Assembly (NCBI GenBank): GCA_023250195.1
Contig: JAHFBF010000001.1
Span: forward strand, 562,422-626,421
DNA length: 64,000 nucleotides
Source of the DNA: Candidatus Melainabacteria bacterium
GTDB lineage: Bacteria > Cyanobacteriota > Vampirovibrionia > 2-02-FULL-35-15
Reading direction: 5' to 3'
Position 1 is the stretch's first letter. Each line of letters starts with the position of its first letter. Below, one piece after another: positions 5,021-29,837 of the stretch. The notes beneath the pieces are model-generated. The model searched no databases. It had not been told where the DNA came from and was given only the letters and a program-made list of their open reading frames with translations. A program made the position numbers and the translations under genes.

Positions 5021-5097
5021 AGGATTTGTCCGATTCATTCGACAAATCCTGTCCTGTGAAAGGAATCTACCAAGAAAAGCGCAAACTTGTTTTGCGC
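5021..5097 (+). repeat. Two-hairpin structured repeat, copy 1
   Basis: This begins with a 30-nt near-perfect hairpin (5021-5050) whose apical part is CCGATTCATTCG. A 30-nt linker with GTGAAAGGAAT and ACC follows, then a second hairpin (5079-5097; arms GCGCAAA, loop around CTTG). Copy 3 at 29762-29837 has the same spacing, loops and linker core but different stem sequences that still pair. It lies in the divergent region between the TPR gene and the RpaB-like gene. Strand is given by the orientation of the alignment; the transcribed strand is unknown. Confidence 0.75.
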
Positions 5098-5200
5098 CTG
5101 GTATAGAAAATACCTGTTCATATTTCTTAACATGAGCTATATTAATCATTAAGCAATTTAAAGTATATCTCAAAACTATTAGGATTAAGGAGTTAATTTT

Positions 5201-5980
5201 ATGGAAGCCGTTTTAAAAGTTGAAAACGAAGCTGCCCAAACTGTAACACCCGCTGAACAATTAGAAAAAGAACCAAGAACAAAAGTATTAATTGCTGATG
5301 ATGAAACTGCAATTAGAAGAATTCTTGAAACAAGATTGAAACTTTCCGGATATCAGGTAGATATTGCTGTTGATGGAGAACAGGCAATTGAAAAATTTAA
5401 TACTTATCACCCTGACATTGTAATTTTAGACATAATGCTTCCAAAAATTGATGGTTTTGCAGTGTGTAAAGAAGTCAGATCTTATTCAGAAGTCCCTATA
5501 ATTATTCTCTCAGCAATTACAGATGTAGCTGATCGGATTAAAGGTCTGGAAATGGGTGCTGATGATTATGTAACCAAGCCATTTAGTCCAAATGAACTTG
5601 AAGCCAGAATTAAAGTTATTTTAAGACGAGTAACAGACAGGCCAATGGAACAGACAATTGGCCATTCAAATAATGTAATCGTAATTGGAAACTTAAAAAT
5701 AGATACAAGCAAAAGACAAGTTTACAAAAACAATGAAAGAATCAGATTGACTGGAATGGAATTTAATCTGCTTGAGCTGCTTGTAAGTAACTCCGGTAAA
5801 CCCTTTTCAAGAGGAGATATCCTGCAGCAGGTATGGTCATATCCCGCAGATCACAGAATTGATACAAGAGTTGTAGACGTACACATAAGCAGACTGCGAT
5901 CAAAGCTTGAAGAAGATCCTGCAAATCCAGAACTAATTCTTACCTCACGTGGAACCGGATACATGTTTCAAAAGATATAG
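5201..5980 (+). CDS. rpaB: RpaB-like OmpR/PhoB-family response regulator
   Basis: A 259-residue two-component regulator. The receiver domain has the acidic pair D33-D34, the phospho-acceptor D77 in ILDIMLPK, S104 and K126 (TKPFSP). A winged-helix DNA-binding domain follows from about residue 155. The segment KRQVYKNNERIRLTGMEF and the C-terminus (DTRVVDVHISRLR, LILTSRGTGYMFQKI) closely match my memory of cyanobacterial RpaB, the essential regulator of light-stress genes. The first 25 residues are an extra, non-conserved leader. AAGGAG precedes the ATG. No histidine kinase is adjacent; cyanobacterial RpaB is also encoded apart from its kinase. Its role in a non-phototroph would have to be general stress control. 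Confidence 0.88.
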   Translation: MEAVLKVENEAAQTVTPAEQLEKEPRTKVLIADDETAIRRILETRLKLSGYQVDIAVDGEQAIEKFNTYHPDIVILDIMLPKIDGFAVCKEVRSYSEVPIIILSAITDVADRIKGLEMGADDYVTKPFSPNELEARIKVILRRVTDRPMEQTIGHSNNVIVIGNLKIDTSKRQVYKNNERIRLTGMEFNLLELLVSNSGKPFSRGDILQQVWSYPADHRIDTRVVDVHISRLRSKLEEDPANPELILTSRGTGYMFQKI

Positions 5981-6008
5981 TTTTTATTACCAGCAGAAAG
6001 GAGTATCT

Positions 6009-6338
6009 ATGTTAAGTTACACAAAAACACTTACCGTTATTTTACTTTTAGCAGGTTTGACTAATCCTTTTTATGTGTCTGCAAACTCAGAGCCCGTAAC
6101 GTCTGATGAAGTTGCTGCACAATTATCAAACTTTGCTCAGGGAGATAAAAAAGAGTTAAGTAAACTCGTCAGAGAAAACAAGAGACTTCTTAAAAATATT
6201 AAAGGGGTTAATAAAAAAACCAGGCTTGAAATAATAAAATCAGTTAATGAATTAGAAGATTCATTAAACGCTGGACTGCCCAAAGATACAATTGAAAATA
6301 CAATAGATGGTCTTATACGTAAACAGCGTAGTAATTAA
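6009..6338 (+). CDS. Small exported helical protein of unknown function
   Basis: A 109-residue protein starting at the ATG at 6009, which has a clear AAAGGAG upstream; an earlier in-frame ATG at 5949 overlaps the preceding gene and lacks such a site. Residues 1-24 form a signal peptide (MLSYTKTLTVILLLAGLTNPFYVSA). The mature part is charged and predicted helical, with LSKLVRENKRLLKNI and a C-terminal helix. It starts 28 bp after the RpaB-like gene and is probably cotranscribed with it. I do not recognise the family. Confidence 0.6.
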   Translation: MLSYTKTLTVILLLAGLTNPFYVSANSEPVTSDEVAAQLSNFAQGDKKELSKLVRENKRLLKNIKGVNKKTRLEIIKSVNELEDSLNAGLPKDTIENTIDGLIRKQRSN

Positions 6339-6402
6339 GTGTGTTAAAAATCCAGTTAGTAACACAGGCACACTGCTTACCCTGAGCAAAGCACGTATGC
6401 TT

Positions 6403-6408
6403 TAATAT
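6403..6408 (+). promoter_or_regulatory. -10 box of argH, leaderless arrangement
   Basis: TAATAT lies 8 nt before the argH ATG, so transcription would start within about 2 nt of the start codon. No Shine-Dalgarno sequence is present. The same arrangement is seen at alaS, purD and marC. Confidence 0.45.
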
Positions 6409-6416
6409 AAAGTGTT

Positions 6417-7817
6417 ATGAATAAGCACAATGATAAAAAGTTCTGGTCTGGGCGTTTCAGTAAAGACAGTGCCGAGCTTCTGGATAGATTTAATTCAAGC
6501 TTAAGCTTCGATAAAAGACTTTATAAGGAAGATATTACCTGTTCAATTGCTTATGTAAGAACACTTGCTCATTCAAAAATCATTTCAGCTAAAGAATCAG
6601 AGGAAATCATAAGAGGGTTAAATAAGGTTTTTGAAGAAATTGAAACTGAAAAAGAGAAGTGGTTTGAAGAAAATAAAAATGAAGATATTCATTCGGCTAT
6701 TGAAAACAGATTAATAAATATAGTTGGGGATGTAGGCAAAAAACTGCACACCGGAAGAAGTAGAAATGATCAGATTTCCTGTGACATAAGATACTGGTTA
6801 AAAGAAGAAGTTAATAAAGTTGTTTTTCTGTTAACAAACTTAAGATCGACAATCATAAGTCTTGCAAGAGAACACTTCAAAACAATTATTCCCGGTTACA
6901 CACATCTTCAGCAAGCCCAAGCCATAACACTAGGACATTATTTTCTTTCTTATGAGCAAAAAATAAGTCGGGATATTCAAAGATTTACAGAAAATTTAAC
7001 CAGAGTTGATGTTTTAACACTTGGTTCAGGAGCACTAGCTGGTACAAGCTATCCTATCGATAGAAATTTTCTTGCAAAGATACTTAGCTTTAAAGAAATC
7101 TCTGAAAATAGCCTGGATGCCGTATCTGATCGGGATTTTATTGTAGAGTGTTTATTTAACATTGCACTTTTAAATACCCATTTAAGTCAGTGGGCAGAAG
7201 AAATGATTTTATGGAACTGTGAAGAATTTAAGTTTATATCCATATCAGATGCTTATGCTACAGGAAGCAGTATGATGCCACAAAAGAAAAACCCTGATAT
7301 TCCTGAATTAATCAGAGGGAAATCAGGAAGATTTATTGGAAACTTAACTGCAATACTCACTCTCTTAAAAGGGCTGCCACAGGCATATAATAAAGATTTA
7401 CAGGAAGATAAAGAATTAATTTTTGATTCGGTTGATAATATAAAAATAATTTTAGAAATAACAAATGAGTTTTTGCAAAATATTACTTTTAATACAGAAA
7501 AAATGTATGAAGCAGCAAACAGCGGCTTTATGAGTGCAACTGACATAGCAGATTATCTTACAAAAAAGGATGTGCCATTTAGAATAGCTCATGAAGTAGC
7601 CGGAAAAATAGTAGCTTATTGTATTGAAAGAAAAAGAACATTTAAAGATCTAAGTATGAGTGAGTGGAATACATTTCATAAATTGTTTGGTGATGATATC
7701 ATTGAAAAAATCAGGATTGAATCCTGTGTAGAATCTAAAAACATTTACGGAGGAACTGCTCCGCAGCAAGTTTTAAATGCAATAGACAGAGTCACTAAAA
7801 GACATGAACTTGAATAA
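6417..7817 (+). CDS. argH: Argininosuccinate lyase
   Basis: Cleaves argininosuccinate to arginine and fumarate, the last step of arginine synthesis, as a cytosolic tetramer. The 466-residue length is normal. The fumarase/aspartase signature GSSMMPQKKNPD lies near residue 282 and supplies the catalytic Ser loop. HTGRSRNDQ near residue 111 and TPGYTHLQ-type IPGYTHLQQAQ near 160 are other hallmark blocks. The ATG at 6417 is supported by WSGRFSKDSAELLDRFNSSLSFD directly after the start region. No other arg genes lie in the window. Confidence 0.96.
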   Translation: MNKHNDKKFWSGRFSKDSAELLDRFNSSLSFDKRLYKEDITCSIAYVRTLAHSKIISAKESEEIIRGLNKVFEEIETEKEKWFEENKNEDIHSAIENRLINIVGDVGKKLHTGRSRNDQISCDIRYWLKEEVNKVVFLLTNLRSTIISLAREHFKTIIPGYTHLQQAQAITLGHYFLSYEQKISRDIQRFTENLTRVDVLTLGSGALAGTSYPIDRNFLAKILSFKEISENSLDAVSDRDFIVECLFNIALLNTHLSQWAEEMILWNCEEFKFISISDAYATGSSMMPQKKNPDIPELIRGKSGRFIGNLTAILTLLKGLPQAYNKDLQEDKELIFDSVDNIKIILEITNEFLQNITFNTEKMYEAANSGFMSATDIADYLTKKDVPFRIAHEVAGKIVAYCIERKRTFKDLSMSEWNTFHKLFGDDIIEKIRIESCVESKNIYGGTAPQQVLNAIDRVTKRHELE

Positions 7818-7870
7818 TAGTTTAACTATTGAAATGATTGACAAGTATAAAATTATCAAGGAGGGCAGTT

Positions 7871-8965
7871 ATGAATAATCATAACCAGGCAATGATTCTT
7901 GCAGCAGGAGTGGGCTCAAGACTTAATCCTCTTACATCACAACTGCCAAAGCCTCTCTGTCCAATCCTTGGAAAACCAGTAATGGAGCACATTGTTTTCC
8001 TTTGCAGGGAACATGGATTTATCAATCTTGCTGCAAATACACATGTCATGGCTGAAAAAATAGCTGAGCATTTTAAAGATATAAATAAAAGATTAGGAGT
8101 AAATCTAAATCTTGTATATGAACCACAATTAACAGGTGTAGCAGGTGGAATAAGAAGCTGCAAAAAATATCTTACTGATGATGTAATCCTTGTAATAATG
8201 TCAGATGCACTTACTGATATTAACCTTACAGAGCTGTATGAAGCACATATAAATAGCGGCTGTGCTGTAACAGCTGCCATTAAAGAAGTAGAAGATACAA
8301 CACAATATGGTGTTGCCGTTACTGATAAAAACAACCGAATAATTTCATTTCAGGAGAAACCAAAACCTGAAGATGCAAAGAGCAATCTGGCAAACACAGG
8401 AATTTATTTTTTTAATCAGAGTGTAATTAATGAGATTCCCTCTGAAAGCGAGATGCTTAAATTTGATGTTGCTACAGATCTCTTCCAAAAATTAATGTCT
8501 AAGAACATTCCTATACAGGCAATTAAGACAAAAAGATATTGGGCAGACATAGGGACTATAAAACAGTACATGGAGAGCATTAAAGATATACTTGAGGGAA
8601 AGGTTAAAATCGAAATTGATGCTGAAAAAACTTCCTATGGTTATAGAAGCAAAGGAACAGTTATTGATTCATCTTCAAAAGTTGATGGCAGAACATATAT
8701 TGGTGAGGGTGTAAAAATTGGTTCAAATGTAATCTTAACAGGCGATGTTTACATTGAAAGAAACTGTACTATTGAATCAAATGCATATATAAACAATTCA
8801 ATTATCTGGGCAAATTCCCATATAAGCAAAAATGTAAAAATAATTAACAGCATAATCGGAAATAACTGTAAAGTAAATGAAGGAATTGAAATTATTTCAA
8901 ATTCTGTATGGGCACCTTCAACGATAATCAGGAATGACAGTAAACCAAGTGTTATATTTGCGTAG
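7871..8965 (+). CDS. Sugar-phosphate nucleotidyltransferase with left-handed beta-helix tail
   Basis: A 364-residue NDP-sugar pyrophosphorylase that makes a nucleotide sugar (GDP-mannose or a dTDP/UDP-glucose type) from sugar 1-phosphate and NTP. The nucleotide-binding signature AAGVGSRLNPLTSQLPKP begins at about residue 10. GVAGGIRSC and the Asp-containing VIMSDAL define the active site. From about residue 265 hexapeptide repeats (GEGVKIGSNVIL...) form a left-handed beta-helix. I use the ATG at 7871, which has AAGGAGGG upstream, instead of one 33 nt earlier. The stop codon overlaps the palindromic repeat at 8965-8992. The substrate cannot be assigned. Confidence 0.85.
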   Translation: MNNHNQAMILAAGVGSRLNPLTSQLPKPLCPILGKPVMEHIVFLCREHGFINLAANTHVMAEKIAEHFKDINKRLGVNLNLVYEPQLTGVAGGIRSCKKYLTDDVILVIMSDALTDINLTELYEAHINSGCAVTAAIKEVEDTTQYGVAVTDKNNRIISFQEKPKPEDAKSNLANTGIYFFNQSVINEIPSESEMLKFDVATDLFQKLMSKNIPIQAIKTKRYWADIGTIKQYMESIKDILEGKVKIEIDAEKTSYGYRSKGTVIDSSSKVDGRTYIGEGVKIGSNVILTGDVYIERNCTIESNAYINNSIIWANSHISKNVKIINSIIGNNCKVNEGIEIISNSVWAPSTIIRNDSKPSVIFA

Positions 8966-8992
8966 TAGAGGCGTAGTATGCTACGTCTCTAC
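8965..8992. repeat. 28-bp palindromic repeat (GTAGAG...CTCTAC type)
   Basis: Near-perfect palindrome between the nucleotidyltransferase and rimM: arms GTAGAGGCGTAG and CTACGTCTCTAC around TATG. The type GTAGAGACGTAGCATG... is, from memory, a very abundant repeat in cyanobacterial genomes. It begins on the last base of the upstream stop codon. Confidence 0.7.
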
Positions 8993-9005
8993 AGAGGGAT
9001 GTTAA

Positions 9006-9503
9006 ATGTTTTTAGTAGGCACTATTGTAGGCACCTTTGGAAATAAAGGAGATATTAAGATAAATCCTCTAATATCTCCTGATGGTTATTTGGCAATGGT
9101 TAAATCAATTGTTGTAGAGGATTCGGATTGTAGAAAACAGGAATTTAAAGTGCTAAGAGCAAGAAAACATAAAAATGTTTATCTGTTTGCTCTTGAAGGT
9201 ATTGATGATATGAACGTTGCAGAAAATTTATCAGGCTTATCAGTTTATCTTCCAACACTTGACTTTATTGAGCTTCAGGAAAATGAATACTTTTACCACC
9301 AGCTTGAAGGCTTAAATGTTTACACTGCAGATGGCAGTCTAATCGGCATTGTTGATCATATTATGAAAGGCGGCAATGATATTCTCGTAATAAAAGATGA
9401 GAATGGTAAAGAAATTATGATACCTTTTGTTGATGAGATTGTTCCTGAAGTAAACTTAAAAGAAAAGACAATAACTGTTAATCCTATAGATGGATTACTC
9501 TAA
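9006..9503 (+). CDS. rimM: Ribosome maturation factor RimM
   Basis: A 165-residue 16S rRNA processing protein that assists assembly of the 30S head by binding ribosomal protein S19. The N-terminal domain (VGTIVGTFGNKGDIKINPL, 3-21) is the RimM G-x-x-G-x-x-G/K-G-x-x-K/R block. The C-terminal PRC-barrel domain holds YFYHQLEGLNVYTADG and NDILVIKDENGKEIMIPFVDEIV. GAGGGATGTTAA precedes the ATG. The TAATG overlap with the next gene shows translational coupling to trpF; the pairing is unusual because rimM normally neighbours trmD and rpsP. Confidence 0.93.
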   Translation: MFLVGTIVGTFGNKGDIKINPLISPDGYLAMVKSIVVEDSDCRKQEFKVLRARKHKNVYLFALEGIDDMNVAENLSGLSVYLPTLDFIELQENEYFYHQLEGLNVYTADGSLIGIVDHIMKGGNDILVIKDENGKEIMIPFVDEIVPEVNLKEKTITVNPIDGLL

Positions 9504-10144
9504 TGCAAAATGTAAAAATTAAAATCTGCGGGATTACATCTGTCTATGATGCAAGGATGGTCTGTTCATTTCCAATTCATGCAATTGGATTAAACTTTGT
9601 AAAAAGATCAAAAAGAAGAATAAACCTGAGAACCGCCAAAGAAATTCTTGATAAATTACCTCCACTTATTGAACCTGTTTTAATTTTTGAAGATGAAAAA
9701 CTAAGTGAGGTAATATATACTTCTACAACACTTGGAATAAGCACTTTACAGTTACATGGTGCTGAAACTGTTTCATACTGCCATGACTTAAAAAGATTTA
9801 ATAAATATTTAAAAATAATAAAAGCTCTTCCTACAAGAGAAGCATCAGCAACCCAGCTTAATGCATACAAAAAAGTTTGCGACTGCTTTTTGCTTGATTC
9901 ATTTGATAGAAAAAATCAAATGGGCGCAACAGGTAAACCATCTGACTGGAATATTGCACAGGAAATAGTTTCAAAAACCAGATTACCTGTAATTCTTGCA
10001 GGCGGGCTTAATCCCTACAATGTAAACAGTGCAGTAAAACGTGTAAAACCCTTTGGCATAGATATTAATAGCGGTGTTGAATCCAGGATTGGGAAAAAAG
10101 ATAAAAGTATGATTGAAAGATTATTTACTGAGTTGAACCAGTGA
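9503..10144 (+). CDS. trpF: Phosphoribosylanthranilate isomerase
   Basis: Catalyses the Amadori rearrangement of N-(5-phosphoribosyl)anthranilate in tryptophan synthesis. The 213-residue TIM barrel begins with KIKICGIT, which holds the general-base Cys9. LLDSF near residue 131 carries the general-acid Asp. LAGGLNPYNV and FGIDINSGVE are the phosphate-binding loops. It overlaps rimM by one base (TAATG). Its 3' end overlaps the end of the convergent helicase gene by 20 bp. No other trp genes are nearby. Confidence 0.93.
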   Translation: MQNVKIKICGITSVYDARMVCSFPIHAIGLNFVKRSKRRINLRTAKEILDKLPPLIEPVLIFEDEKLSEVIYTSTTLGISTLQLHGAETVSYCHDLKRFNKYLKIIKALPTREASATQLNAYKKVCDCFLLDSFDRKNQMGATGKPSDWNIAQEIVSKTRLPVILAGGLNPYNVNSAVKRVKPFGIDINSGVESRIGKKDKSMIERLFTELNQ

Positions 10145-13100
10145 AAACATTTTCTTTAAATTCACCGCTTTGATGTCTTTTTTCTAGCCCACTCCAATAA
10201 TTTCTATCCAATTCAGGTTTACAAAGTTTACAACCATCATGATTTTTCCCTTCCATAACCCCTAAACTATCTCTAAGTTCATCTTTTGATGCTGGTATAG
10301 CATTTTTATTTCCTTCTACTTTAGGACAATGAGGGTTTCCATGTACCCTTACTTTCTTTGTTGATCCTTTTCCTATAACAGGCTTAATTTTATCTTCATC
10401 TTGTCTTGTTATCCAAAATTGGAGTTTTCCGTCTTGATCAAACCAGGGATCAGTTATTTTCCCTTCTGGTTTTGTAGAATCAGAAGCAGTAGTCGTCTCA
10501 GTTAAATCTCTAATTGCTTGTTTAAGGGCTTCATTACCTTGTAACAAAGGTTCTACATATTTGTTGTTAAATCCAACTACCTCACCACTTAAGAAGTTTA
10601 CTAATAAATCTTTTACCAACTGTTCTATTGGATCAGATATGTCTCGTGGTAATTCATTCCCAGTAGCTCTTTTGTATCGTTCCTTCAATCTTTTATATTG
10701 TGATAGTAGAGCAGTAAATTGATTTTTTACTTGGAAATCTTGCTTTACTTCTCCACCAACAAAATGAGAATTAGTACAAACAGCTGCAGCAAGAAAAATA
10801 TGATTATCATTTAAAGGAGTATCTTTGTTATTTGCTTCTAGAAAGAATAGAATATTACTTAAGTCGTCACTTGATTTAAAGTAATGTTCTACAGATCCTG
10901 CTTTTAACTTATTTAAACCAACTTTTAAATAAGCATATGCCCTTTGCGTTTCAGGAGTTGGTTTATAGTTATTAATTTTCCTCTCTGCAATTTCAAGTTG
11001 TTTTCCATAGATCTCTTTGAAATCATATACTACTAATACATGACCAGCTAGGTCTTCTCCCTTTTTGCCCCCATATAAAGTCCCATAAGGACTAATTTCA
11101 GACAGCGATAAAAAATTCAATCTGCTGAATTGTGTAGCTAGTTCAGAATTATATAAACTACGAGATGGTGCTGCAATTAAATTGCAGTTAGAATTCTCCA
11201 AGAGGCTTTTTATAAGATCTTTATTAAACTCATTAGAATCTATAGGAATAAAACAGACTACTTCTGGTAAAGTATCTATAAGATGTTGTAGGACTTCAAC
11301 TGCATTCCCAATTATTTCAAGTTTTCTTGCATCACCTAATCGTGTATAAACCCTTTGATTAACTTCGCCACTAAATACTGCAAAAGGTCTTGGATATTGA
11401 ATACTTCTTATTTCAATCTTTTGTTCAATCCCCAGAGACTTAACTCTAAGAGTGAAGTCTTTTGCAGAATTTCTAACTAAATCTACTTCATTATCTCCCT
11501 CTCCAGCTCTATATAATAATGATGCATTTTGAAGGGTTAGATCTAAAACTTTCTCAACTTCAGCTGCAATTGGTGGTAAAGTTCTGTGTTGACGCTCATA
11601 TTCTCTGTGAGCATCTCTAATTTGAAGTGCTAATTCATGAAGAAATTTTATTTTGGGATTAGTTAATCTTTCTGGAGCAAAAAAATGAACATACTCGCTA
11701 AAAGTTTTAATTAATGTCGTACCACAATCTTCAATTTGACCTGATTCATTAACTTGCAAAGCCTCACAATACTTTCTTACAGTAGTCTTAAATCTATCGT
11801 TTACAGTACCTACACTAGATTGTAGGTCTACCGATACAAGTCCTTTACCGAATAAGTAATCAGTAAATTGTTCTGGCTCAAGCTCTTCTATTTTTGATGT
11901 TTCGAAACCTTTTTCTGTTAGCTTTGGATGGACACCATAAATTCTTATAAATAAGTCCTGTAATGGCTTTGAGGAACTATATCCTACAACAGCTCTTGAA
12001 TTAGAAGCGTCTTCACTATTAGGTTTTTTCACTGTTACACGCTCTGCATCATTCAATAGAACAGTACTATCAGTATCACGAGATAAGTCAATTCCTTCTG
12101 AACTAAGTAATGAACCTTCTTCTGATGTAGGTAAGATTGTTTTTCCTAAAAGATCATCAATTAACCTTTGCGTCATTTTTTTTCTGCTTGGCTCCCCAAA
12201 TACAAGAGTTCTAAGTAAACTTAAATTTTTACCTCTTCTATATATAAGTTCTCGTCTTGTTGGACTAAATTCAAAAAATAGTTGAAACATTAATTTATCT
12301 GGTATACCATCACCCATAGAAAATTCTGTTCTTGCAATATCATTCATTAAATGTTCAATTGAACGGTAGACCATGTCTGTAGTATCAGCAAAAGGGATTT
12401 CATCCTTTTGGTTCCTTTTGTAATCATCTTCTTCATAAACACAGGAACTAAAAAAAGCTGGTCTTAATTTATCTCTAATATCTCTGATTTTTGTAGAGTC
12501 TTGTGTAGTTGCTTCAATAACTGTACGCAAGTATTGGCGTAATTTATGTCTTGCTACAGCAGACGGATCTTCACTTGTAGCTAAACCTGTTTTTATTGCA
12601 ATAAATCTTTCAAGTTTTTCTCTGTCTTCATCTGGGCAGTTAAAGAAATTTTTCCAGACGTAACATAAGTTAGCTGGAAGATCATATGCAAAATCCTGTA
12701 CTACTTTCTCAAGGCTTTCATCAAAGTAAACCCCAAGTCCGGCAGCCTCTCTGACAAAATTTTCTGATATAACATGAGTACATTCTCCATGCCCGATATC
12801 TTCTTCAACAAAATCTTCTGGTACATCAGGAACTATACAATCTCCATTACTAGTAGCTTCATCGACAAAATCTCCCTGGGTATCATCTTCTACACCCTTA
12901 CCTACTAGCTCATCTTCTCCTCCTTTGCAAACTATAGGTATAGGCCGTAAGACATTAGGTGCTAAAAATCTCACTATTTGAATATTTCTTAAAGCACCAC
13001 TTAGATCGTCAATTATTACAGAATTTGTGAAAGGACATATTCTTAGTCCTCTACCAATCCATTGAGTTAAAACCGTACCAGATTCCGAATATGCCCAAAG

Positions 13101-20611: not shown

Positions 20612-20638
20612 AGTTACCCGTGAAAACTTTTACACACA

Positions 20639-21747: not shown

Positions 21748-22491
21748 TTATACAGTAACAGCCTCACCAAAAGGAATTGAGAGTGCCTGCTCCAATCTTT
21801 CTTCTACAGGTTTCCAATCTACATCTGCAATAAAAGCATCTAAGTATTTCTTTTTGTCAGTACCATAATCAATCATATATGCATGTTCATAGGCATCAAG
21901 GACTAAAATCGGATGAACCATTGTCGGGACATTGAGATTATGTCGCTCAAGTCCATAGACATTTATTTTTCCTGTTCTATAATTTAACGCTGCAAGTGAC
22001 CAACCATGAAATATCTTACCAACAGTTTTCAGATGTCCTATAAGACTTTCAAGGCTTCCAAAGTCACGATTAATCATTTTCTTAAGAGTACCTTTTAGTT
22101 CTTTATTTGAAGCTCCAAGATTACCAAAATATAACTCATGCAGCACTGCACCATTTAACATGCTGGTTTGATCCAAATGCCAGCCGCGATAATTAATCGT
22201 GTCTGGATTATTTGTATCAAAGCTTTTAATTCTTGCTTCCAGATCATTGATTTTTGTTATATAACCCTCATATAACGCAAAATGTGCTGTTAACTGCTTA
22301 TCACTAAACCCTTTTAAAGCACCTCCTAATAGATTTGTATATTTTTTTGCAAGATATTTTTGAAGAGGTTTACCATTTTCTATTCCGCCAGATGAATCTT
22401 TACCTGAAGCATTAGCCGAATTTGTACTTAATGCTGCTGCTGTACTTAAAAGCCCTAATTTTAAAAAATTTCTTCTATCTAAATCTTTCAT
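21748..22491 (-). CDS. Exported Fe/Mn-type superoxide dismutase
   Basis: A 247-residue superoxide dismutase preceded by a Tat signal (DRRNFLKLGLLSTAAAL, 5-21), so it acts outside the cytoplasm on folded, metal-loaded protein. The four metal ligands appear intact: H70 (TAHFALYEGY), H118 (VLHELYFGNL), D199 and H203 (DAYEHAYMIDYG). Two usual residues differ: the second His of the H-x3-H-H block is Tyr, and the Trp of D-x-W-E-H is Tyr. GWSLAALNYRTGKINVYG is typical of the C-terminal domain. AAGGAGAAAACT precedes the ATG. The pairing with the metallophosphoesterase downstream is probably an operon. Confidence 0.9.
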   Translation of the reverse strand: MKDLDRRNFLKLGLLSTAAALSTNSANASGKDSSGGIENGKPLQKYLAKKYTNLLGGALKGFSDKQLTAHFALYEGYITKINDLEARIKSFDTNNPDTINYRGWHLDQTSMLNGAVLHELYFGNLGASNKELKGTLKKMINRDFGSLESLIGHLKTVGKIFHGWSLAALNYRTGKINVYGLERHNLNVPTMVHPILVLDAYEHAYMIDYGTDKKKYLDAFIADVDWKPVEERLEQALSIPFGEAVTV

Positions 22492-22582
22492 AGTTTTCTC
22501 CTTTTACACTTAAACATTATAAGTTCTAGAAAGTAATATATAAAATCAATACACTTTATTTGTATACACTTCTAGACTAGAA

Positions 22583-22622
22583 GAGATTGCCGCGTCGCTG
22601 CTTCGCAGCTCCTCGCAATGAC
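22583..22622. repeat. REP-like element, half copy 3
   Basis: The right half only of the same REP family: GAGATTGCCGCGTCGC, a small hairpin GCTGCTTCGCAGC, then CTCCTCGCAATGAC. It lies between the divergent dismutase and purD genes. Confidence 0.8.
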
Positions 22623-22671
22623 AGTATTGCGTAATATTTTCATACTCCTCAAGAAAACTGCCTCAATTTCT

Positions 22672-22700
22672 GTGACACACCCTTTTAATTACCGTATAAT
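22672..22700 (+). promoter_or_regulatory. purD promoter, leaderless arrangement
   Basis: GTGACA (22672-22677) and TATAAT (22695-22700) are separated by exactly 17 bp. The -10 ends 8 nt before the purD ATG, so the transcript should begin within about 2 nt of the start codon. No Shine-Dalgarno sequence is present. Confidence 0.7.
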
Positions 22701-22708
22701 CTCTATAT

Positions 22709-24037
22709 ATGAAAGTTTTAGTAATCGGTGGTGGTGGAAGAGAACATGCAATTTGCTGGAAGTTGCATCAAAGTTCACATGTTACTCAGATTTTTTGTGC
22801 TCCTGGAAACGCTGGTATTGCTGAAGTCGCTACCTGTGTAGCGATACCACCATCAGATATACAAAGACTTGCAGAACTTGCTATCGTTCAAAAAATCGAT
22901 CTGACAATTGCAAGTATGGATGAATCACTTGCTAAAGGAATAGTTGATCACTTTAAGAAAAAAGGACTCCGGATTTTTGGACCCACACAAAATGCAGCAA
23001 AACTTGAATGGTCAAAATATTTTGCAAAAGAATTTATGCTCAGGCATAATATCCCCACTGCGCCATATGCATGTTTTGAACAGAGAGATTTTGCGCTTGC
23101 TTATGCAAAGTCACAAAAAACTCCTATTGTTGTAAAAGCAGATGGTCTTGCACTTGGGAAAGGAGTTACTGTAGCAAAATCATTTGAAGAAGCAAAAATT
23201 GCAATTCATAATTGCTTTGACGGAAAATTTGGAGAAGCAGGGCAAAAAGTCGTAATTGAAGAATTTATGAGTGGGCAGGAAGTCTCTATTTTTGCAATTA
23301 CAGATGGTAAAGATGCTGTGACTCTTGCATCTGCTCAGGACTATAAAAGACTTTATGACAGCGATCTGGGTCCGAATACAGGAGGTATGGGTGCTTATGC
23401 TCCTGTTCCTTTTATGACTCCTGAATTAATTGGTCAGGTAAAAGAAGAAATAATAATGCCCACAATTAAAGGTATGGAAAAAGAAGGATCTCCTTACCAG
23501 GGGGTTCTTTATTGCGGATTAATGATAGGGGAAGAAGGGGAACTAAAAGTTGTTGAATTTAACTCAAGACTTGGAGATCCTGAAGCTCAGGTTGTTTTAC
23601 CGCTGCTGGACGAGGATTTATTTGAAATATGCTGGGCTGTAACAGAAGGTAATCTGGGAAAGTATAAAGAAGGATTTCACAGATTAGGCGGTGCTGCTCT
23701 TTGTGTAGTTATAGCCTCAGGTGGTTATCCTGCAAATTATCAAAAAGGGATTCCTGTTGAATTCTCTAAATTAAATGAGCCTGTAGAAATTGTAAGTGGA
23801 AAAAATCCGCAGACACTTGAAGCAATACTTCGTGCTAAAGGGATTATATTTCATGCCGGAACTGCACGTGATACTGACGGTAAGCTCGTTTCAAACGGCG
23901 GAAGAGTCCTAGGGGTAACAGCTCTTGCTGACAGCCTTTTAGACGCACAGGTTTTAGCTTATAAGCTCTGTGAGAGAATTGACTTTGAAGGTAAATATTA
24001 CCGCAAAGATATTGGCGATAGAGGAATGGTAAACTAG
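22709..24037 (+). CDS. purD: Phosphoribosylamine-glycine ligase
   Basis: GAR synthetase, the second step of purine synthesis, joining phosphoribosylamine and glycine at the cost of ATP. The 442 residues start with MKVLVIGGGGREHAICWKL, the invariant N-terminal loop. The ATP-grasp domain contains KADGLALGKGV and PNTGGMGAYAPVPF. ALCVVIASGGYPANYQKG and NGGRVLGVTAL are typical of the C-terminal domain. The length is normal. No other pur genes lie in the window. Confidence 0.96.
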   Translation: MKVLVIGGGGREHAICWKLHQSSHVTQIFCAPGNAGIAEVATCVAIPPSDIQRLAELAIVQKIDLTIASMDESLAKGIVDHFKKKGLRIFGPTQNAAKLEWSKYFAKEFMLRHNIPTAPYACFEQRDFALAYAKSQKTPIVVKADGLALGKGVTVAKSFEEAKIAIHNCFDGKFGEAGQKVVIEEFMSGQEVSIFAITDGKDAVTLASAQDYKRLYDSDLGPNTGGMGAYAPVPFMTPELIGQVKEEIIMPTIKGMEKEGSPYQGVLYCGLMIGEEGELKVVEFNSRLGDPEAQVVLPLLDEDLFEICWAVTEGNLGKYKEGFHRLGGAALCVVIASGGYPANYQKGIPVEFSKLNEPVEIVSGKNPQTLEAILRAKGIIFHAGTARDTDGKLVSNGGRVLGVTALADSLLDAQVLAYKLCERIDFEGKYYRKDIGDRGMVN

Positions 24038-24050
24038 CTTGAGCCTGTTA

Positions 24051-24431
24051 TCATGCTACCCATGATGTTGCAGCTGCATCCTCTTGTACATTTGCTTCAT
24101 TTGCATTTTCTTTATTTGCATTTGCCCTAGCATATTCTACTTGACCAGCTTCTCTTCTATTTGCTTCGTCGGCAGCGGCTTGAGCTTCTGCCGCTGATGC
24201 ATCTATAATAGCTTGCTCTTGTCTGTGAGTTTCTTCCTGTGCTATTATGTCTCTAATCCCAGTATCCCCATTCCTAATCTTATCGACTAGAGCCTGTAGG
24301 TCTGCTGGAAGATTTTCCAACGTACTTAGAAGATTATCTGAAAGAAGATCCTTCGCATCATCAGCATTTGTTAATGAATATTTTGAAGCTTGCTCTACCG
24401 CAGGAACAACAACATTATAGCCTTCGCCCAT
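24051..24431 (-). CDS. Small alanine-rich hypothetical protein
   Basis: A 126-residue acidic protein I do not recognise. Residues 1-75 are helical (VPAVEQASKYSL, DDAKDLLSDNLLSTLENLPADLQALVDKI). The C-terminal 55 residues are very rich in Ala, Glu, Asn and Gln (ASAAEAQAAADEANRREAG) and are probably a long helix or disordered. There is no signal peptide. AAGGAG precedes the ATG. It is transcribed leftwards from a leader of up to 290 nt that contains the structured segment at 24521-24720. Confidence 0.5.
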   Translation of the reverse strand: MGEGYNVVVPAVEQASKYSLTNADDAKDLLSDNLLSTLENLPADLQALVDKIRNGDTGIRDIIAQEETHRQEQAIIDASAAEAQAAADEANRREAGQVEYARANANKENANEANVQEDAAATSWVA

Positions 24432-24520
24432 AAAATTCTCCTTTTTTAATTAGCATTATCATCTAACGTGGGCCATTTAAACATATCCCGATTAAAGCAA
24501 GATTAAGTATCTAATAAAAT

Positions 24521-24556
24521 CAAGACCCCTACGCGAATTCTAACGCAGGGGTCTTG
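24521..24556 (-). terminator. Terminator-like 10-bp hairpin
   Basis: Perfect arms CAAGACCCCT and AGGGGTCTTG around 16 nt. On the minus strand a moderately T-rich tract (ATTTTATT) follows. It lies about 90 bp before the start codon at 24431 and could act as an attenuator or end an independent small RNA. Confidence 0.5.
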
Positions 24557-24720
24557 TTCCTTAACTTTGTCTGACCTAGCTCCTGAAAATTCTCAGGAAT
24601 TCGACCTAACTATTTTACCTTCCGCTTGGTATACCTGCGGTTAATTTTTCCGCTCTCCTTTGGGTCAATTTATGTCGCCCACTTTTATTGGCAACCACAC
24701 GGTTACTAATAAGATTACAC
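24521..24720 (-). ncRNA. Candidate structured RNA or cis-regulatory leader
   Basis: This GC-richer stretch lies in an otherwise AT-rich intergenic region, upstream of the small gene ending at 24051. Read on the minus strand it shows a hairpin GCGG-aaaaattaa-CCGC, the palindrome GGTATACC, a hairpin TCCTGA-gaattt-TCAGGA flanked by two TAGGTC copies, and finally a 10-bp stem CAAGACCCCT/AGGGGTCTTG (24521-24556) followed by ATTTTATT. The final stem resembles an intrinsic terminator. I compared it mentally with 6S, tmRNA, SRP, RNase P and several riboswitch consensuses and found no match. Ends are approximate. Confidence 0.4.
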
Positions 24721-25016
24721 ACTTAAAGAAGAAAATTCAAGATACTTATTACTCAAATAAATAATTTATTTTTAATTTAATCTCAGGTTAATTAAATTAG
24801 TTAAAATTACATTTAATTCAGGTTAAGAGCATCAGTAGAAATGTTAACCATTACTGCCTAGCTAATGTAATCCTTCCAAACAAATAACTTATGAAGGTAA
24901 GATTTTATCCGATTCACTCGGTAAAATCTGTAAAATGTTATAAAAGGCAGACCAGGAGCACTTTGCAAAGCCCGACAAGCGAAGAATGAGCAAGGAGGGC
25001 GGTAAAAATAGAAATG
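24721..25016. other. AT-rich gene-free stretch with a partial structured repeat
   Basis: No open frame of interest is visible here. The only clear structure is the hairpin at 24900-24929, followed by a degenerate linker (AAAAGGCAGACCAGGAG). A loose GCCC...GGGC pairing lies near 24972-25000. Confidence 0.4.
24900..24929 (+). repeat. Two-hairpin structured repeat, partial copy 2
   Basis: The first hairpin is preserved: arms AGATTTTA and TAAAATCT around the conserved apical CCGATTCACTCG. The linker and second hairpin have diverged compared with copies 1 and 3 (a weak AAAGGC...GACC and a CTTTGCAAAG palindrome remain). Confidence 0.6.
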
Positions 25017-25457
25017 TTAACCCTTCCCTGGTTTTGCCTTTGAAAAGTAAGTTACCAAATTAACCTGAGAACCTACATTATCTTTTCTCTTTACACTTAC
25101 TGTTACCTCTTTCAAGCCTGTATCCTGGGAAATATCTGCCGGATAATCATCAGGAGGAAGAGAGGTTTTCGGATCAACATACCTTACTGAAATTCTAACT
25201 AAATAAGGACCTTCAGATCTTATAACAGACATTCCCTGTACACCACCAAGTGCATCAAGCTCAGAATCATAATAACGAAGAGCTCTCAATTTTTCCGTTT
25301 CATTCTGAACTAAATTAACTGCCTGACCCTGTATTTGTATCCTGGCATTTTTCTGAATTATATAAGGAAAGAGAGCAATAATTCCTGATAGTGCAGTAGT
25401 AATAATTACTATGCATACCATGAGTTCTATCATTGATTGTCCAAATTCAGATCTCAT
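25017..25457 (-). CDS. Type IV pilin-like / prepilin N-terminal methylation protein
   Basis: A 146-residue protein if started at the ATG ending at 25457. FGQSMIELMVCIVIITTALSGIIALFPYI is a prepilin-type segment: a short charged leader, then a hydrophobic helix with Glu five positions after the processing site, though the residue before the helix is Gln or Ser, not the typical FTLIE form. The rest is a small globular domain (LVQNETEKLRALRYYDSELD, LVRISVRYVDPKTSLPPDDYP). This suggests a minor pseudopilin of a type II secretion or type IV pilus machine. No other pilus genes are adjacent. The start lies only 27 bp from that of the divergent glyoxalase gene. Confidence 0.6.
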   Translation of the reverse strand: MRSEFGQSMIELMVCIVIITTALSGIIALFPYIIQKNARIQIQGQAVNLVQNETEKLRALRYYDSELDALGGVQGMSVIRSEGPYLVRISVRYVDPKTSLPPDDYPADISQDTGLKEVTVSVKRKDNVGSQVNLVTYFSKAKPGKG

Positions 25458-25484
25458 AGTTTTGATGATAACATATTCATTTAT

Positions 25485-25886
25485 ATGAAAGTAAAGTTTA
25501 CACATGTTGCTCTTCTGGTTAATGACGTAGACAAGACTGCTGATTTCTACATTCAATATTGCGGTTTAAAAATTATTGCACGAAGATTAGATCCAAACAC
25601 GGGCTATCGAGTAATCTGGATTGGAGAGGATTTAAAGTTTGTTATTGTTGCTTTTGAAAGCGAAAAAAAACCAATACAATCAATTACAAAGCCACTAAGT
25701 CATCTTGGATTTTCTCTTGAATCAAAAGAAGAAGTAGACAAAGTTGCAGAAGTTGCAAAAGAAGAAGGAATATTAAATTACGGTCCGGTTTATCTTGATC
25801 CTGATGTTGGATATATCTGTGAAATATTGGATCCTGATGGAAATTCTATAGAGTTCAGCTTTGGACAGAAGCTAGGCAGTAACTAG
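25485..25886 (+). CDS. Glyoxalase/bleomycin resistance-family protein
   Basis: A 133-residue vicinal-oxygen-chelate protein. The two beta-alpha-beta-beta-beta modules are KFTHVALLVNDVDKTADFYIQYCGLK and SHLGFSLESKEEVDKVAEVAKEEG. Candidate metal ligands are the His of FTHVAL, the His of LSHLGF and the Glu of NSIEFSFG. The substrate is unknown; lactoylglutathione lyase is one option among many. I start at the ATG at 25485, since the earlier in-frame ATG would run into the divergent pilin-like gene. It converges with yidC, overlapping its end by 4 bp. Confidence 0.8.
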   Translation: MKVKFTHVALLVNDVDKTADFYIQYCGLKIIARRLDPNTGYRVIWIGEDLKFVIVAFESEKKPIQSITKPLSHLGFSLESKEEVDKVAEVAKEEGILNYGPVYLDPDVGYICEILDPDGNSIEFSFGQKLGSN

Positions 25887-27034
25887 GGCAATGCTTTTTC
25901 TTTCTCGGGTTCTTCAATCTTTAAACTCTCGATAGATATAGGCTGTCTCATTACAACCCACGTTTGTAATGCCTGAATAAGGCCACTTACAACAAAATAT
26001 AAAAGGACACCGGCAGGGACAGGAAATAATAACGTCATTGTTCCAACCATAACCGGCATCACTCTCTGCATAGTTTTTTGCATCTCAGCCTGTTTTGGAT
26101 CAGAGGATGGCGGTGTTGTATGTGAAGTAACTTTCCCGGATAACCAGATAGTTAATGCAAACAACATAACCAAAATAATAACATCAATATTAAATTTCCC
26201 TGTCAAAGGATCAACAGCACCTGTTTCACCAAGTCCTTTTATAAATAAGAACCTGTCCTTCTCGGAACTACCGGGTAGAATTGCATTTAAAAAAACTCTT
26301 CCGGGATTTTTTGTTTTAATAGTTACACTATTGTCAGGATTTATCGCAAAGTCTGCAAATGAATTTAAATTTTTTGAATTGTATCCGGGAGTAAAAAGAC
26401 CTCTGTCTGACAACTGCCATTTAATATTATTTATTACCCCATTCACATTTCCTTCAAGTGTATAAATCTTATATATAATTTCTTTTCCAGCAGGAATTTT
26501 AACTTCTCCCGGATGTAAGACTAATCTACCCTTCAAACCATTCTTACCGACAAAAATCGTTGAACCTGAAGAACCTTTAATCTGTTCATTCAATGTCTGA
26601 TCCTGATTTAAAATTTGAATGGGGACCGTAATCGCAACAGGCTTAAATGGAGAACCGTTAAACGCCCAGAACAATGCGATTAGAATCGGCAATTGAAACA
26701 ACATAGGGAAACAACCACCAAGAGGATTAACCTTATATGTCTGGTAAAACTCCATCATATCTTTTTGAAAACCTTCCTGAAGTTCTTTTAACTTTGCTGG
26801 TTTATCTTTGTATCTTTCTTTTTGCTGGTTAAATCTATCCTGAAGTATTTTAATTTTTGGCTGCAGGGCCTGCATTTTCTGCATTGCCTGAGTCTGGTGT
26901 CTTGTAAGAGGGTAAAGAACTACTTTCACAATTATTGTTACAACAATGATTGCCCAGCCATAGCTGCCTAGTGAGTTTTTAAAGAACTCAAGCATTGGAA
27001 GAATAAAATGATAGGTAATTAAACTAATGTCCAT
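25883..27034 (-). CDS. yidC: Membrane protein insertase YidC
   Basis: A 383-residue Oxa1/YidC insertase from the ATG ending at 27034 ([18 protein letters not shown]). The frame is open to 27124, but the extra residues derive from the repeat at the yidD end. Conserved blocks are [63 protein letters not shown] and [34 protein letters not shown]. About 120 residues of periplasmic beta domain lie between transmembrane segments 2 and 3, an unusual place compared with the N-terminal domain of E. coli YidC but, from memory, common in cyanobacteria. It is the last gene of rpmH-rnpA-yidD-yidC. Confidence 0.93.
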
Positions 27035-27365
27035 AGCTGCCTTTGGCGTACTGTGTATCGCGTATGAAGTATTGTGTTCTTTGTTGCGTACGCAATGCGC
27101 GCGACGCAATATGCGATACTTCATCTACTCCACCTTTAAACAACGGATTGCATCTTAGAAATCTTTTCAAAGAAAGCACTGTGCCGGAAATCAGGCCATA
27201 TGTTTTTAACGATTCTAAAAAATAATCCGAACAACTTGGATAAAATCTGCATTGGGAAATTTGAAAAAACGATCTAATAGTCCTTGTTTTTTGCCACAGT
27301 GTAACAAAAACCAAAATTAATGTATAAAACATAAAATATACTTTTGCAAATAAATATTTAGTCAC
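27024..27365 (-). CDS. yidD: Membrane protein insertion efficiency factor YidD with repeat-derived tail
   Basis: A 113-residue protein. The core [22 protein letters not shown] and [16 protein letters not shown] is the invariant YidD motif (CRFxPSCSxYxxEA, RCxP). The N-terminal 30 residues are hydrophobic. After GGVDEV the family normally ends. Here about 28 more residues ([20 protein letters not shown]...) are encoded by an iterated GCGTA/TACGC-type repeat. It overlaps rnpA by 8 bp and the yidC start by 11 bp, so the four genes are tightly coupled. Confidence 0.92.
27040..27125. repeat. Iterated GCGTATTGCGT-type repeat at the yidD/yidC junction
   Basis: Short related words recur on the two strands (GTATCGC, ATTGCGTACGCAA, GCGCGCATTGCGTACGC, ATACGCGATAC). 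The block supplies the C-terminal tail of YidD and the sequence just before the YidC start codon. TACGCAATACGCAA-like iterated repeats of this sort are known in several bacterial genomes. Confidence 0.65.
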
Positions 27366-27750
27366 AAGCCTTATTTTCCAGTCTTCTTAACAGATTCTCC
27401 ATTGAATCTTTAATCTGCTTAAATGTAGCATTTTTTATATTTTGATTTGCAATCCAGATTAATACTGATATTTTTTTAAGATTATTATTGTTAATGAGTC
27501 TTTCTCTAAATACTCTATACGCTGATCTCATTCTACGTTTTACTAAATTTCTCTTATTAGCTTTTTTTTCTACCTTAATTCCCACAATAAAAGCAGTTTT
27601 AGGTAACTTTACCTCTGATTCTCTTTTTTTCCTGAACAAATAATAAAGTAGTAACAAATCAGAGCTTAGTTTCTGACCATTTTTTTTCCCTATACTAAAT
27701 GCAGTATTAAACAGGTATCTTTCTTTTAATCTTTCTGTTTTTGAAAGCAT
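27358..27750 (-). CDS. rnpA: Ribonuclease P protein component
   Basis: A 130-residue basic protein that binds RNase P RNA and helps cleave tRNA 5' leaders. The signature [18 protein letters not shown] (about 67-84) is the RNR motif. The start [18 protein letters not shown] matches the family's N-terminal LKKxxDFxxxF pattern. It begins 2 bp after the rpmH stop. Confidence 0.93.
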
Positions 27751-27752
27751 TC

Positions 27753-27896
27753 TTAATGTCGAGACGGAGCCAGTCTCTTTCGCCCTTTAAGTCTTCTTCT
27801 CTTTAAGACGCTTCTTCCATCTTTAGATTTTAATCTGGCTCTAAAACCGCTTGTTTTGATTTTTTTTCTGTTAGAGCCTCCAAGAGTACGTTTCAT
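27753..27896 (-). CDS. rpmH: 50S ribosomal protein L34
   Basis: A 47-residue basic protein of the large subunit. It begins [18 protein letters not shown] and ends [15 protein letters not shown], matching L34 throughout, although the usual KRTYQPS start is replaced by KRTLGGS, as in cyanobacteria. AGGAAAAATAA precedes the ATG. It heads the rpmH-rnpA-yidD-yidC cluster and is divergent from dnaA. Confidence 0.97.
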
Positions 27897-28286
27897 GATT
27901 TATTTTTCCTTCTTTATTAAACGCAAAATAACTGCTAACGCCCAAAATTCAATAAAAGACTTCGCTATTTATATGCTAATTCCTTTCGATGTTCAGGTTT
28001 GCACTACGGCAAATCTTCACTTGTACAAAAGTTGAAATCGTTGAATACAGTTAATCTATCATTAATTATTTATAACACACTTTTTGTTTTACACAATATA
28101 TCTACTTTTAATTTTTGATTATTAACTGACATTTATCAATTTATATCATGTTAAGCTTTTTACCCAACTCAAAAATGATCTCTTAAATACATAAACTTAA
28201 AAGGAAAAAGATAAACGAAGGTTTATCTGTATACGACAAACCATAGTATCGATTCGTAAGGCCGAGAAAAGCAGAATAATTTACAA
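27897..28286. other. rpmH-dnaA intergenic region, possible replication origin
   Basis: A 390-bp AT-rich region between rpmH and dnaA, the place where many bacteria keep oriC. I can find only one clear DnaA-box-like sequence, TTTTACACA near 28087-28095, and a related TTATAACACA near 28071. Three or more boxes would be expected. AT-rich tracts that could unwind are abundant. It must also hold the divergent rpmH and dnaA promoters. An origin here is possible but weakly supported. Confidence 0.3.
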
Positions 28287-29675
28287 ATGAATTTAGAAGT
28301 CGAAAATATTTGGACCCTTGTTCAAGGACATCTTTCAAAAGAAATGAAAGTCCCAAGCTTTCAGACCTGGATAAAACCATCAAAGTTAATTGAGATTTAC
28401 GATAGCAGAGCAATAATCGCCGTTAAAAATGAATTTAATAAAAATTTTCTAAAGCAATGTTATTTAACCAAGATTACTTCTGCGATTGAAAAAGTAATAG
28501 GAAGAAAATTTGAGGTGGAAATTGTAGTAAAGCCCAACTTAAAGTTAAATGAGTTTATTCCTTCAATTGCAAACTTAAAAGAAGCCGACTCAATTGTAAA
28601 CACTAAGTCTTCATCGTTTAATGAAGGATACTTTGACCATACTTTTAGACATAAAACAAATTTAAATCCCTCATATACATTTGAAAGTTTTGTAGTAGGT
28701 TCAAGCAATCAATTTTGCCACGCTGCTGCACTTGCAATATCTGAATCCCAGAGCGAACAATATAATCCTCTTTTTATTTATGGTGGTGTCGGCCTTGGTA
28801 AGACCCACCTTGCTCATGCTATTGCAAATTACACACAGGAACAGGATAGAAGTAAAGTCATAAAATATACCAGTTCAGAATCATTTACAAATGAACTTAT
28901 TCATTCCATAAAATCAAATAACATGGGTAGCTTCAGAGAAAAATATAGAAAAGTAGATCTGCTTATGATTGATGATATTCAGTTTCTTGCAGGGAAAGAG
29001 GCTACTCAGGAAGAATTTTTTCATACATTTAATGCACTCAGGGAAAATGGGAAACAAATTATCCTAACTTCAGACAGGCCACCAAGTTCATTATCATCAA
29101 TTACTGACAGATTAAAAAATAGATTTGAAGGCGGCCTCATTGCAGATATTCAGGTCCCGGATTTAGAAACAAGAACTGCGATTTTAATTCTTAAAGCAAG
29201 TAACCTTAATATTGATCTCCCGATTGAAGTAGCTGAATATATTGCAACTGTTTTCTCAAATAATATAAGAGAACTGGAAGGAGCGCTAAAAAGGGTTCAT
29301 GCTTATTTATCTTTCACTCAGGAAAGTTTAAGTTTAAAAAATGTACAGAGAGTTTTATCCTCAGGGAACCTATCCCATGCAAAACCATCTCCCGAGACAG
29401 TAATTAAAACAATTGCATCATTCTATAACGTTTCCTACGAAGGTTTACTAAGTACAAAGAGATCTTCTGATCTTACTAAACCAAGACATATAGCTATTTA
29501 TATACTTCATAGCTTTTACAATTTAAGCTTTCCAAGAATCGGAGAATTACTATCCAACCGTACACACAGCTCAGCTATTTATGCATATCAGCAAATTAAG
29601 AAAAAACTTATAAAAGATCAGGCTTTTTCAGAACAGGTCAATTCTTTAAGAGGATTGATTGAGAGGAAGAGATAA
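28287..29675 (+). CDS. dnaA: Chromosomal replication initiator protein DnaA
   Basis: A 462-residue AAA+ initiator. Domain I (about 1-80) interacts with helicase, domain II is a short linker, and domain III starts at NPSYTFESFVVGSSNQFCHAAA. Walker A is GGVGLGKT (166-173) and Walker B is LLMIDDIQFL. Sensor segment ILTSDRPP follows. Domain IV carries the DNA-binding signature in KPRHIAIYILHSFYNLSFPRIGELLSNRTHSSAIYA; the usual GRDHTTV reads NRTHSSA, so the contact Asp is replaced by Thr. This might mean altered DnaA-box preference. No strong Shine-Dalgarno sequence is seen. Confidence 0.96.
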   Translation: MNLEVENIWTLVQGHLSKEMKVPSFQTWIKPSKLIEIYDSRAIIAVKNEFNKNFLKQCYLTKITSAIEKVIGRKFEVEIVVKPNLKLNEFIPSIANLKEADSIVNTKSSSFNEGYFDHTFRHKTNLNPSYTFESFVVGSSNQFCHAAALAISESQSEQYNPLFIYGGVGLGKTHLAHAIANYTQEQDRSKVIKYTSSESFTNELIHSIKSNNMGSFREKYRKVDLLMIDDIQFLAGKEATQEEFFHTFNALRENGKQIILTSDRPPSSLSSITDRLKNRFEGGLIADIQVPDLETRTAILILKASNLNIDLPIEVAEYIATVFSNNIRELEGALKRVHAYLSFTQESLSLKNVQRVLSSGNLSHAKPSPETVIKTIASFYNVSYEGLLSTKRSSDLTKPRHIAIYILHSFYNLSFPRIGELLSNRTHSSAIYAYQQIKKKLIKDQAFSEQVNSLRGLIERKR

Positions 29676-29761
29676 TTTTCCTTAACCCGCATAAGCTTTT
29701 AATTAATAATTACACATAAAAAGACTTATAATCTTCTTTATAGAATGTCCTAGCACTAAGA

Positions 29762-29837
29762 GCATTTATCCGATTTATTCGGCAAATGCGATCGGGTGAA
29801 AGGAATTGACCGAAGGAAGCTCCAGCTTGTCTGGAGC
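29762..29837 (+). repeat. Two-hairpin structured repeat, copy 3
   Basis: The first hairpin (29762-29789) has arms GCATTTAT and GCAAATGC with apical CCGATTTATTCG. The 30-nt linker has GTGAAAGGAAT and GACC. The second hairpin (29819-29837) has arms GCTCCAG and CTGGAGC with CTTG in the loop. It matches copy 1 in length and layout, with compensating stem changes. It ends 19 bp before the aldehyde dehydrogenase ATG. Confidence 0.75.

Follow-up and report, generated by a model that had tools for sequence, protein, structure and literature searches.

A high-copy two-hairpin intergenic repeat restricted to one family of Candidatus Melainabacteria, possibly a mobile leader element

A 64,000-nt stretch of the genome of a Candidatus Melainabacteria bacterium (GCA_023250195.1, contig JAHFBF010000001.1, positions 562,422–626,421, forward strand; hereafter the window) carries two copies of a small two-hairpin element, one upstream of rpaB and the other upstream of an aldehyde dehydrogenase (ALDH) gene, which raises the question of what such an element is and at which level, RNA or DNA, its structure is used. 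The initial annotation had placed the copies at 5021–5097 and 29762–29837, positions that are borne out by the sequence. Both copies are real; rather than forming a pair, they belong to a high-copy family, designated here type A. The best reading, to which we assign a probability of about 50%, is a family-restricted, non-coding, lineage-specific mobile leader element; stated most safely, type A is a structured intergenic element of high copy number that is specific to this lineage and turns over between species. Two things had not been noticed at first: the element is a repeat whose presence is polymorphic between genomes, and its relative (type B, described below) is a transposable element. 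Type A therefore does not qualify as a classical regulatory RNA dedicated to particular genes.

The type A element is about 105 bp long and consists of a 5' motif, a first hairpin with a bulged T, a purine-rich linker of 28–29 nt, a second hairpin, and an A-rich right edge. In each window copy, hairpin 1 (7 bp, one bulged nucleotide, 4 bp, and the loop UUYAU) and hairpin 2 (7 bp with the pentaloop CUUGU) are separated by a linker that is equal in both copies, as reported, although its length is 29 nt rather than 30 nt. Both copies fold better than their shuffled versions, with z-scores of –4.3 and –2.6 on the plus strand, and they score 92.8 and 99.4 bits with a covariance model that was built from 6 copies, these two included. 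The 76–77 nt originally delimited correspond to the two-hairpin core, while a profile over many copies extends conservation by about 17 nt in the 5' direction (a CTWRCA-like motif) and by about 9 nt in the 3' direction (wTATAAAA). The 5' motif fits TANNNT, the form of a –10 box, in some copies and reads CTTGCA in others; it is also carried by type B. The TATAAAA following hairpin 2 is unlikely to be a promoter of leaderless mRNAs, since the starts lie 2–4 nt past the hexamer and a stem that varies freely could not preserve a –35 box.

Covariation was assessed on 83 copies drawn from at least eight genomes, in an alignment fitted to the model, although the copies are easy to align without gaps. 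Of the stem cells, 99.3% are paired, two-sided changes are found in 16 of the 18 stem pairs, and the covariation score is 0.531, compared to 0.179 for shuffled and at most 0.07 for slid controls, which strongly confirms the compensating stem changes, and hence the constraint on structure, first noted from the two window copies. Chance is ruled out because of this covariation together with the many copies in 11 genomes. The loops are nearly constant (CUUGU in 80/83 and UUYAY in 77/83 copies), the bulged T is kept in 76 copies, and the linker measures 29 nt in 67 and 28 nt in 13 copies; in some copies (G000 L063:4400 and L084:2297) hairpin 2 has been swapped for another hairpin at the same place. 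G-U pairs are almost absent, with 0 of 577 pairs in hairpin 2 and 16 of 911 in hairpin 1, while in the same DNA they make up 9.3% of the pairs in tRNAs and 20% of those in terminator-like hairpins. Such scarcity speaks for pairing in DNA, or for repair that perfects palindromes, rather than for a relaxed RNA helix. Of the two possibilities originally offered, an RNA or a protein-recognised DNA hairpin, DNA pairing is thereby kept open, while the siting before starts and tRNAs described below points to transcribed leaders. A pseudoknot between the hairpin 1 loop UUYAU and the linker GUGAA was considered and rejected, the A-U pair failing in 43 of the 83 copies.

An exact-pattern search found four copies in the same genome and more in the rest of the family. 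The covariance-model search of this and related genomes, suggested in the initial annotation, revealed many further copies: at E ≤ 1, all 11 genomes of one Melainabacteria family, that of the window, contained 15–148 matches each, the weakest of which include related type B elements and matches to hairpin 1 only. At stricter thresholds, 135 further genomes of the class gave no match, and 5 of 292 genomes in a phylum sample matched, all five from this family. The named records holding the core are 'Candidatus Melainabacteria' metagenome-assembled genomes from groundwater. The window had no Rfam match at the gathering score and only chance-level matches at E ≤ 10, none of them over the element, in agreement with the earlier remark that no named element of this form was known. 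Type A is apparently an undescribed, family-restricted repeat, of a dispersed-repeat kind that is already known. As for carriage by phages, a single IMG/VR pattern match lies inside an open reading frame (ORF) and has a model score of just 13.9 bits, so it is not a convincing copy.

Genomic context was analysed for 77 copies from the whole contig C6 of the same genome and from parts of G000, G002, G003, G006, and G008; only C6 is an unbiased sample, the pieces of G002, G006, and G008 having been taken around matches. The bodies of ORFs of at least 150 aa contain no full-length copy; where copies overlap ORFs, the ORF either is short and spurious or has a start extended upstream. In 61 copies the gene that follows lies on the same strand, and a start codon follows 7–15 nt past hairpin 2 in 34, compared to 4.2% of random intergenic points. 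Among the genes starting at this distance, those with well-known N-termini include L14, MurG, PlsX, GalE, FabF, ProC, and S10, the names being assigned by reading the first residues. Six copies precede tRNA genes of the same strand by 9–15 nt, and some adjoin neither a start codon nor a tRNA. On C6, copies on the plus strand outnumber those on the minus strand, but genes slightly do so too. Separately, three perfectly spaced tandem copies precede a tRNA-Gly gene in G002 (L094:9874-10185), as perfect duplications of a 117-bp unit and with an identical upstream 30 nt.

The spacing to start codons was compared with ribosome-binding signals. The 16S rRNA of this organism ends in GGATCACCTCCTTTCT, and 79% of the C6 ORFs have an anti-Shine–Dalgarno match below –4 kcal/mol. 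The 34 genes with a start 7–15 nt past hairpin 2 have no Shine–Dalgarno sequence in this interval, and their mean anti-Shine–Dalgarno energy is near zero; where the start lies at least 17 nt past hairpin 2, as in the window ALDH gene, a Shine–Dalgarno sequence is present in between in 6 of 7 cases. The 3' ends of the linkers (GAAGGAAG, GGAGGAAG, and similar) are complementary to the 16S rRNA end, which results in the order Shine–Dalgarno, hairpin, AUG, and the layout of a split ribosome-binding site, with no Shine–Dalgarno sequence between hairpin and AUG, occurs in those 34 of the 77 copies. Neither window copy belongs to this class. Copies lacking hairpin 1, including those at secY (G000) and at ALDH of G010, retain the purine stretch, hairpin 2, and ATG; at secY of G000 the half copy lies between a retained AAGGAC and the ATG, and G002 is without it there. 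In T4 genes 25 and 38, a hairpin between the Shine–Dalgarno sequence and AUG shortens the effective spacing (PMC3014915); the order is the same, although the T4 cases are single genes, while here a dispersed element would carry the arrangement.

We infer that the siting before AUGs and tRNAs reflects use as a 5' leader, and that in roughly half of the copies close to genes hairpin 2 bridges the Shine–Dalgarno sequence and AUG. Once transcribed, type A would form the 5' leader, and a gene starting 7–15 nt past hairpin 2, having no Shine–Dalgarno sequence of its own, would be translated by ribosomes binding the purine stretch just 5' of the hairpin, the folded hairpin 2 bringing this stretch to a usable distance from AUG, as in the T4 genes. 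Such a split ribosome-binding site would make insertion just before a gene tolerable. It is possible, if doubtful, that a mobile element with its own split site inserts between the Shine–Dalgarno sequence and the start and sustains translation of the gene by supplying another Shine–Dalgarno sequence ahead of a hairpin that shortens the spacer, the same hairpins serving mobility as single-stranded DNA.

Occupancy differs between genomes at orthologous loci. The element is present at rplN in 2 of 11 genomes (G000 and G002, with differing left flanks), at rpaB in one (G000), and at ALDH as a full copy in one (G000), where G010 has only the purine stretch and hairpin 2, and G006 has an apparent hairpin 2 remnant with an insert in its loop. 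Many G000 and G002 loci are empty in G003, a member of the same genus, while some are shared, e.g., C6:507054 in G000 and G003, with compensated hairpins 1 and 2. Such differences in occupancy mean that the element either moves or turns over, and it probably is, or was until recently, mobile. Loss of hairpin 1 by 5' truncation, as a sign of reverse transcription, was rejected, since the G002/G003 pair L098/L231 shows the 5' motif kept and hairpin 1 absent, which looks like an internal deletion. Just before ALDH on the reverse strand of L138, a CCCGACTAGGCGGG palindrome is inserted in the hairpin 2 loop between duplicated CTTG; it is another small palindromic element nested in hairpin 2.

Several observations weigh against a mobile leader element. 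Copies followed by a start codon have a purine stretch just marginally stronger than that of the others (Mann–Whitney p = 0.065), and the stretch precedes tRNA genes as well; therefore, it belongs to the element as such and does not prove use. Helices that functioned purely as RNA would not usually be so poor in G-U pairs, so a constraint at the DNA level, which may act besides RNA, has to be taken seriously. The case for mobility rests on presence/absence: no target duplication was found over the 77 copies, the sole signal being an artefact of tandem copies, no transposase linked to type A was found, and the empty sites align too untidily to fix the insertion edges.

A rival reading is a non-autonomous HUH/Y1 element (IS200/IS605-, PATE- or REP-like), in which the hairpins are single-stranded DNA substrates, hairpin 1 with its bulged T and hairpin 2 being the subterminal hairpins recognised by a transposase, and the siting before genes reflects mere tolerance. 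Scarce G-U pairs, the lack of target duplication, the conserved bulge, and the placement of the hairpins, some 17 nt inside the left and 9 nt inside the right edge of conservation, are all consistent with this, and IS608 bears subterminal hairpins at both ends without target duplication (PMC5934647). However, Y1 transposases (PF01797) were detected in only 6 of 11 genomes and are missing from the copy-rich G004, G006, G008, G009, and G010; several Y1/RAYT genes carry unrelated GTAACC..GGTTAC palindromes in their upstream flanks, and none carries hairpin 1 or 2. A RAYT/Y1 transposase as the mobiliser was therefore rejected as not linked to the element. Unlike the paired ends of IS200/IS605, the two type A hairpins differ in loop and bulge, and no tnpA is linked; cleavage and guide tetranucleotides were not identified. 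Repetitive extragenic palindromic (REP) sequences and REPINs are likewise high-copy extragenic palindromes with bulged hairpins and no target duplication (PMC3733652, PMC3116915), but type A has two different hairpins in direct orientation, is not linked to RAYT, and lies upstream of genes, while REPs are mainly downstream. Among the 77 copies, the REP tag GTAG was found at the foot of hairpin 1 in 4 and at that of hairpin 2 in none, and CGTC was not found at the foot of hairpin 1; the integron attC boxes RYYYAAC/GTTRRRY were not found around the hairpin in any. A HUH/Y1 element would also leave the 7–15 nt spacing of starts and tRNAs from hairpin 2 unexplained, and we regard this origin as rather unlikely. 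The RAYT-like Y1 transposases on L192, L193, L194, L195, L196, and L197 represent a separate REP system in this family.

The loci occupied in different species or genera (rplN, C6:507054 with its compensated stems, and others), the invariant loops and bulge, the constant linker, and the strand bias toward the downstream gene could be explained by a vertically inherited cis-regulatory RNA, or a protein-binding leader of a regulon, that was repeatedly lost. The targets (L14, SecY, MurG, PlsX, GalE, and tRNAs) have no common theme, presence differs in most syntenic comparisons, tandem copies and copies without a nearby gene exist, and G-U pairs are few, all of which makes such inheritance improbable.

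A relative of type A is the type B element, the only further clear covariance-model match in the window (hairpin 1 only, 24900–24939). It is a miniature inverted-repeat transposable element (MITE) with the terminal inverted repeats GTTACTGCCTAGC.../...GGTAGGCAAAAAC. In G002, eleven copies are present, ten of them with 96–100% identity over (nearly) the full length; exact 8-bp target duplications flank three of these and the window copy, an empty site exists in G000, and dozens of relatives occur in G000 and G010. By eye, type B resembles type A in the 5' motif, hairpin 1 (which the model matches too), linker length, and right edge, but it differs in having an extra 5' segment with the terminal inverted repeat, another second hairpin, and target duplications of fixed length. 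No transposase of an autonomous partner was found between type B ends, and partial matches lie where contigs end or close to a broken DDE transposase ORF that is unrelated. Type A could be imagined as an ancient DDE-type MITE, belonging to the type B superfamily, in which inverted repeats and duplications have decayed, its covariation resulting from hairpin-templated repair that perfects palindromes in the course of replication, without functional selection. Such repair would account for the missing G-U pairs. However, loops, bulge, and linker that stay constant over 83 diverged copies require selection or a live source, and no trace of target duplication remains even in copies restricted to a single genome; we give this scenario a low probability.

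Small, many-copy, intergenic, lineage-restricted repeats that fold in transcripts, and for which mobility and an effect on the mRNA have been proposed or shown, include pneumococcal BOX, RUP, and SPRITE, Correia/NEMIS, and ERIC (PMC3049150). Type A is likewise small, high-copy, intergenic, and lineage-restricted, but differs from them in sequence and architecture, having two non-inverted, non-identical hairpins; a start at a fixed short distance past a hairpin, with no Shine–Dalgarno sequence between, is not described for BOX/RUP-type repeats in that paper. With type A, a little-studied branch beside Cyanobacteria gains a repeat family that is well defined, apparently undescribed, and unusually strong in its covariation; the host family consists of non-photosynthetic relatives of cyanobacteria. 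If type A does act as a leader, translation would start with the help of a repeat at dozens of genes in each genome, among them genes for ribosomal proteins and for secretion, and the Shine–Dalgarno sequences of these genes would escape standard start-site models. Perfect Watson–Crick covariation, movement that leaves no target duplication, and the closeness to coding starts together make both the transposition mechanism and hairpin-bridged initiation directly testable.

The coordinates of the elements in the window are listed in Table 1.

Table 1. Type A and type B features in the window, with the evidence for each
Feature	Position	Strand	Evidence
Copy 1, 5' flank of type A, ~17 nt conserved; overlaps 5' end of divergent TPR gene	5004–5020	+	sequence; upstream profile over many copies
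Copy 1, hairpin 1 (AGGATTTGTCCGATTCATTCGACAAATCC)	5021–5049	+	sequence, folding, covariance model, covariation
Copy 1, linker, 29 nt, core GTGAAAGGAAT	5050–5078	+	sequence
Copy 1, hairpin 2 (GCGCAAA-CTTGT-TTTGCGC)	5079–5097	+	sequence, folding, covariance model, covariation
Type B, left 8-bp target duplication TGTTAACC	24842–24849	.	sequence; 8-bp duplications of sister copies
Type B, 165 nt, MITE: left end ATTACTGCCTAGC, hairpin 1-like hairpin 24900–24929, right end GGCGGTAAAAATAGAAA	24850–25014	+	model match, copy comparison
Type B, right 8-bp target duplication TGTTAACC	25015–25022	.	sequence
Copy 2, 5' flank of type A (AATGTCCTAGCACTAAG)	29744–29760	+	sequence, profile; near-identical flank at rplN copy of same genome
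Copy 2, hairpin 1 (AGCATTTATCCGATTTATTCGGCAAATGC)	29761–29789	+	sequence, folding, covariance model, covariation
Copy 2, linker, 29 nt; 3' end GAAGGAA (29812–29818) Shine–Dalgarno-like	29790–29818	+	sequence; duplex energy with own 16S 3' end
Copy 2, hairpin 2 (GCTCCAG-CTTGT-CTGGAGC)	29819–29837	+	sequence, folding, covariance model, covariation
AAAAGGAG, Shine–Dalgarno of ALDH gene (start 29857)	29843–29850	+	sequence; 3' of hairpin 2, retained from empty site

Copy 1 is located between divergent genes (TPR and rpaB), about 100 nt upstream of rpaB. A CTGTTCATATTTCTTAACATGAGCTATATTA-like stretch at about 5105–5140, between the copy and rpaB, is kept in 11 of 11 genomes, whether the element is present or not, and is likely the rpaB promoter or an operator. 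Since this conserved, element-independent stretch separates it from rpaB, copy 1 is not the rpaB leader proper. Copy 2 is located between a native TATAAT (29727–29732), conserved in relatives, and the native ALDH Shine–Dalgarno sequence; AAAGGAG or AAGGAG before ALDH is also found in element-free relatives.

Among other genes of the window, dnaA is located at 28287–29675 and GC skew shifts nearby on contig C6; therefore, the replication origin is probably close. A gene for a 60-kDa inner membrane protein (YidC-like) is located upstream of dnaA (25883–27124), and two genes of AcrB-type efflux pumps lie near each other, at 46706–49831 and 54500–57571.

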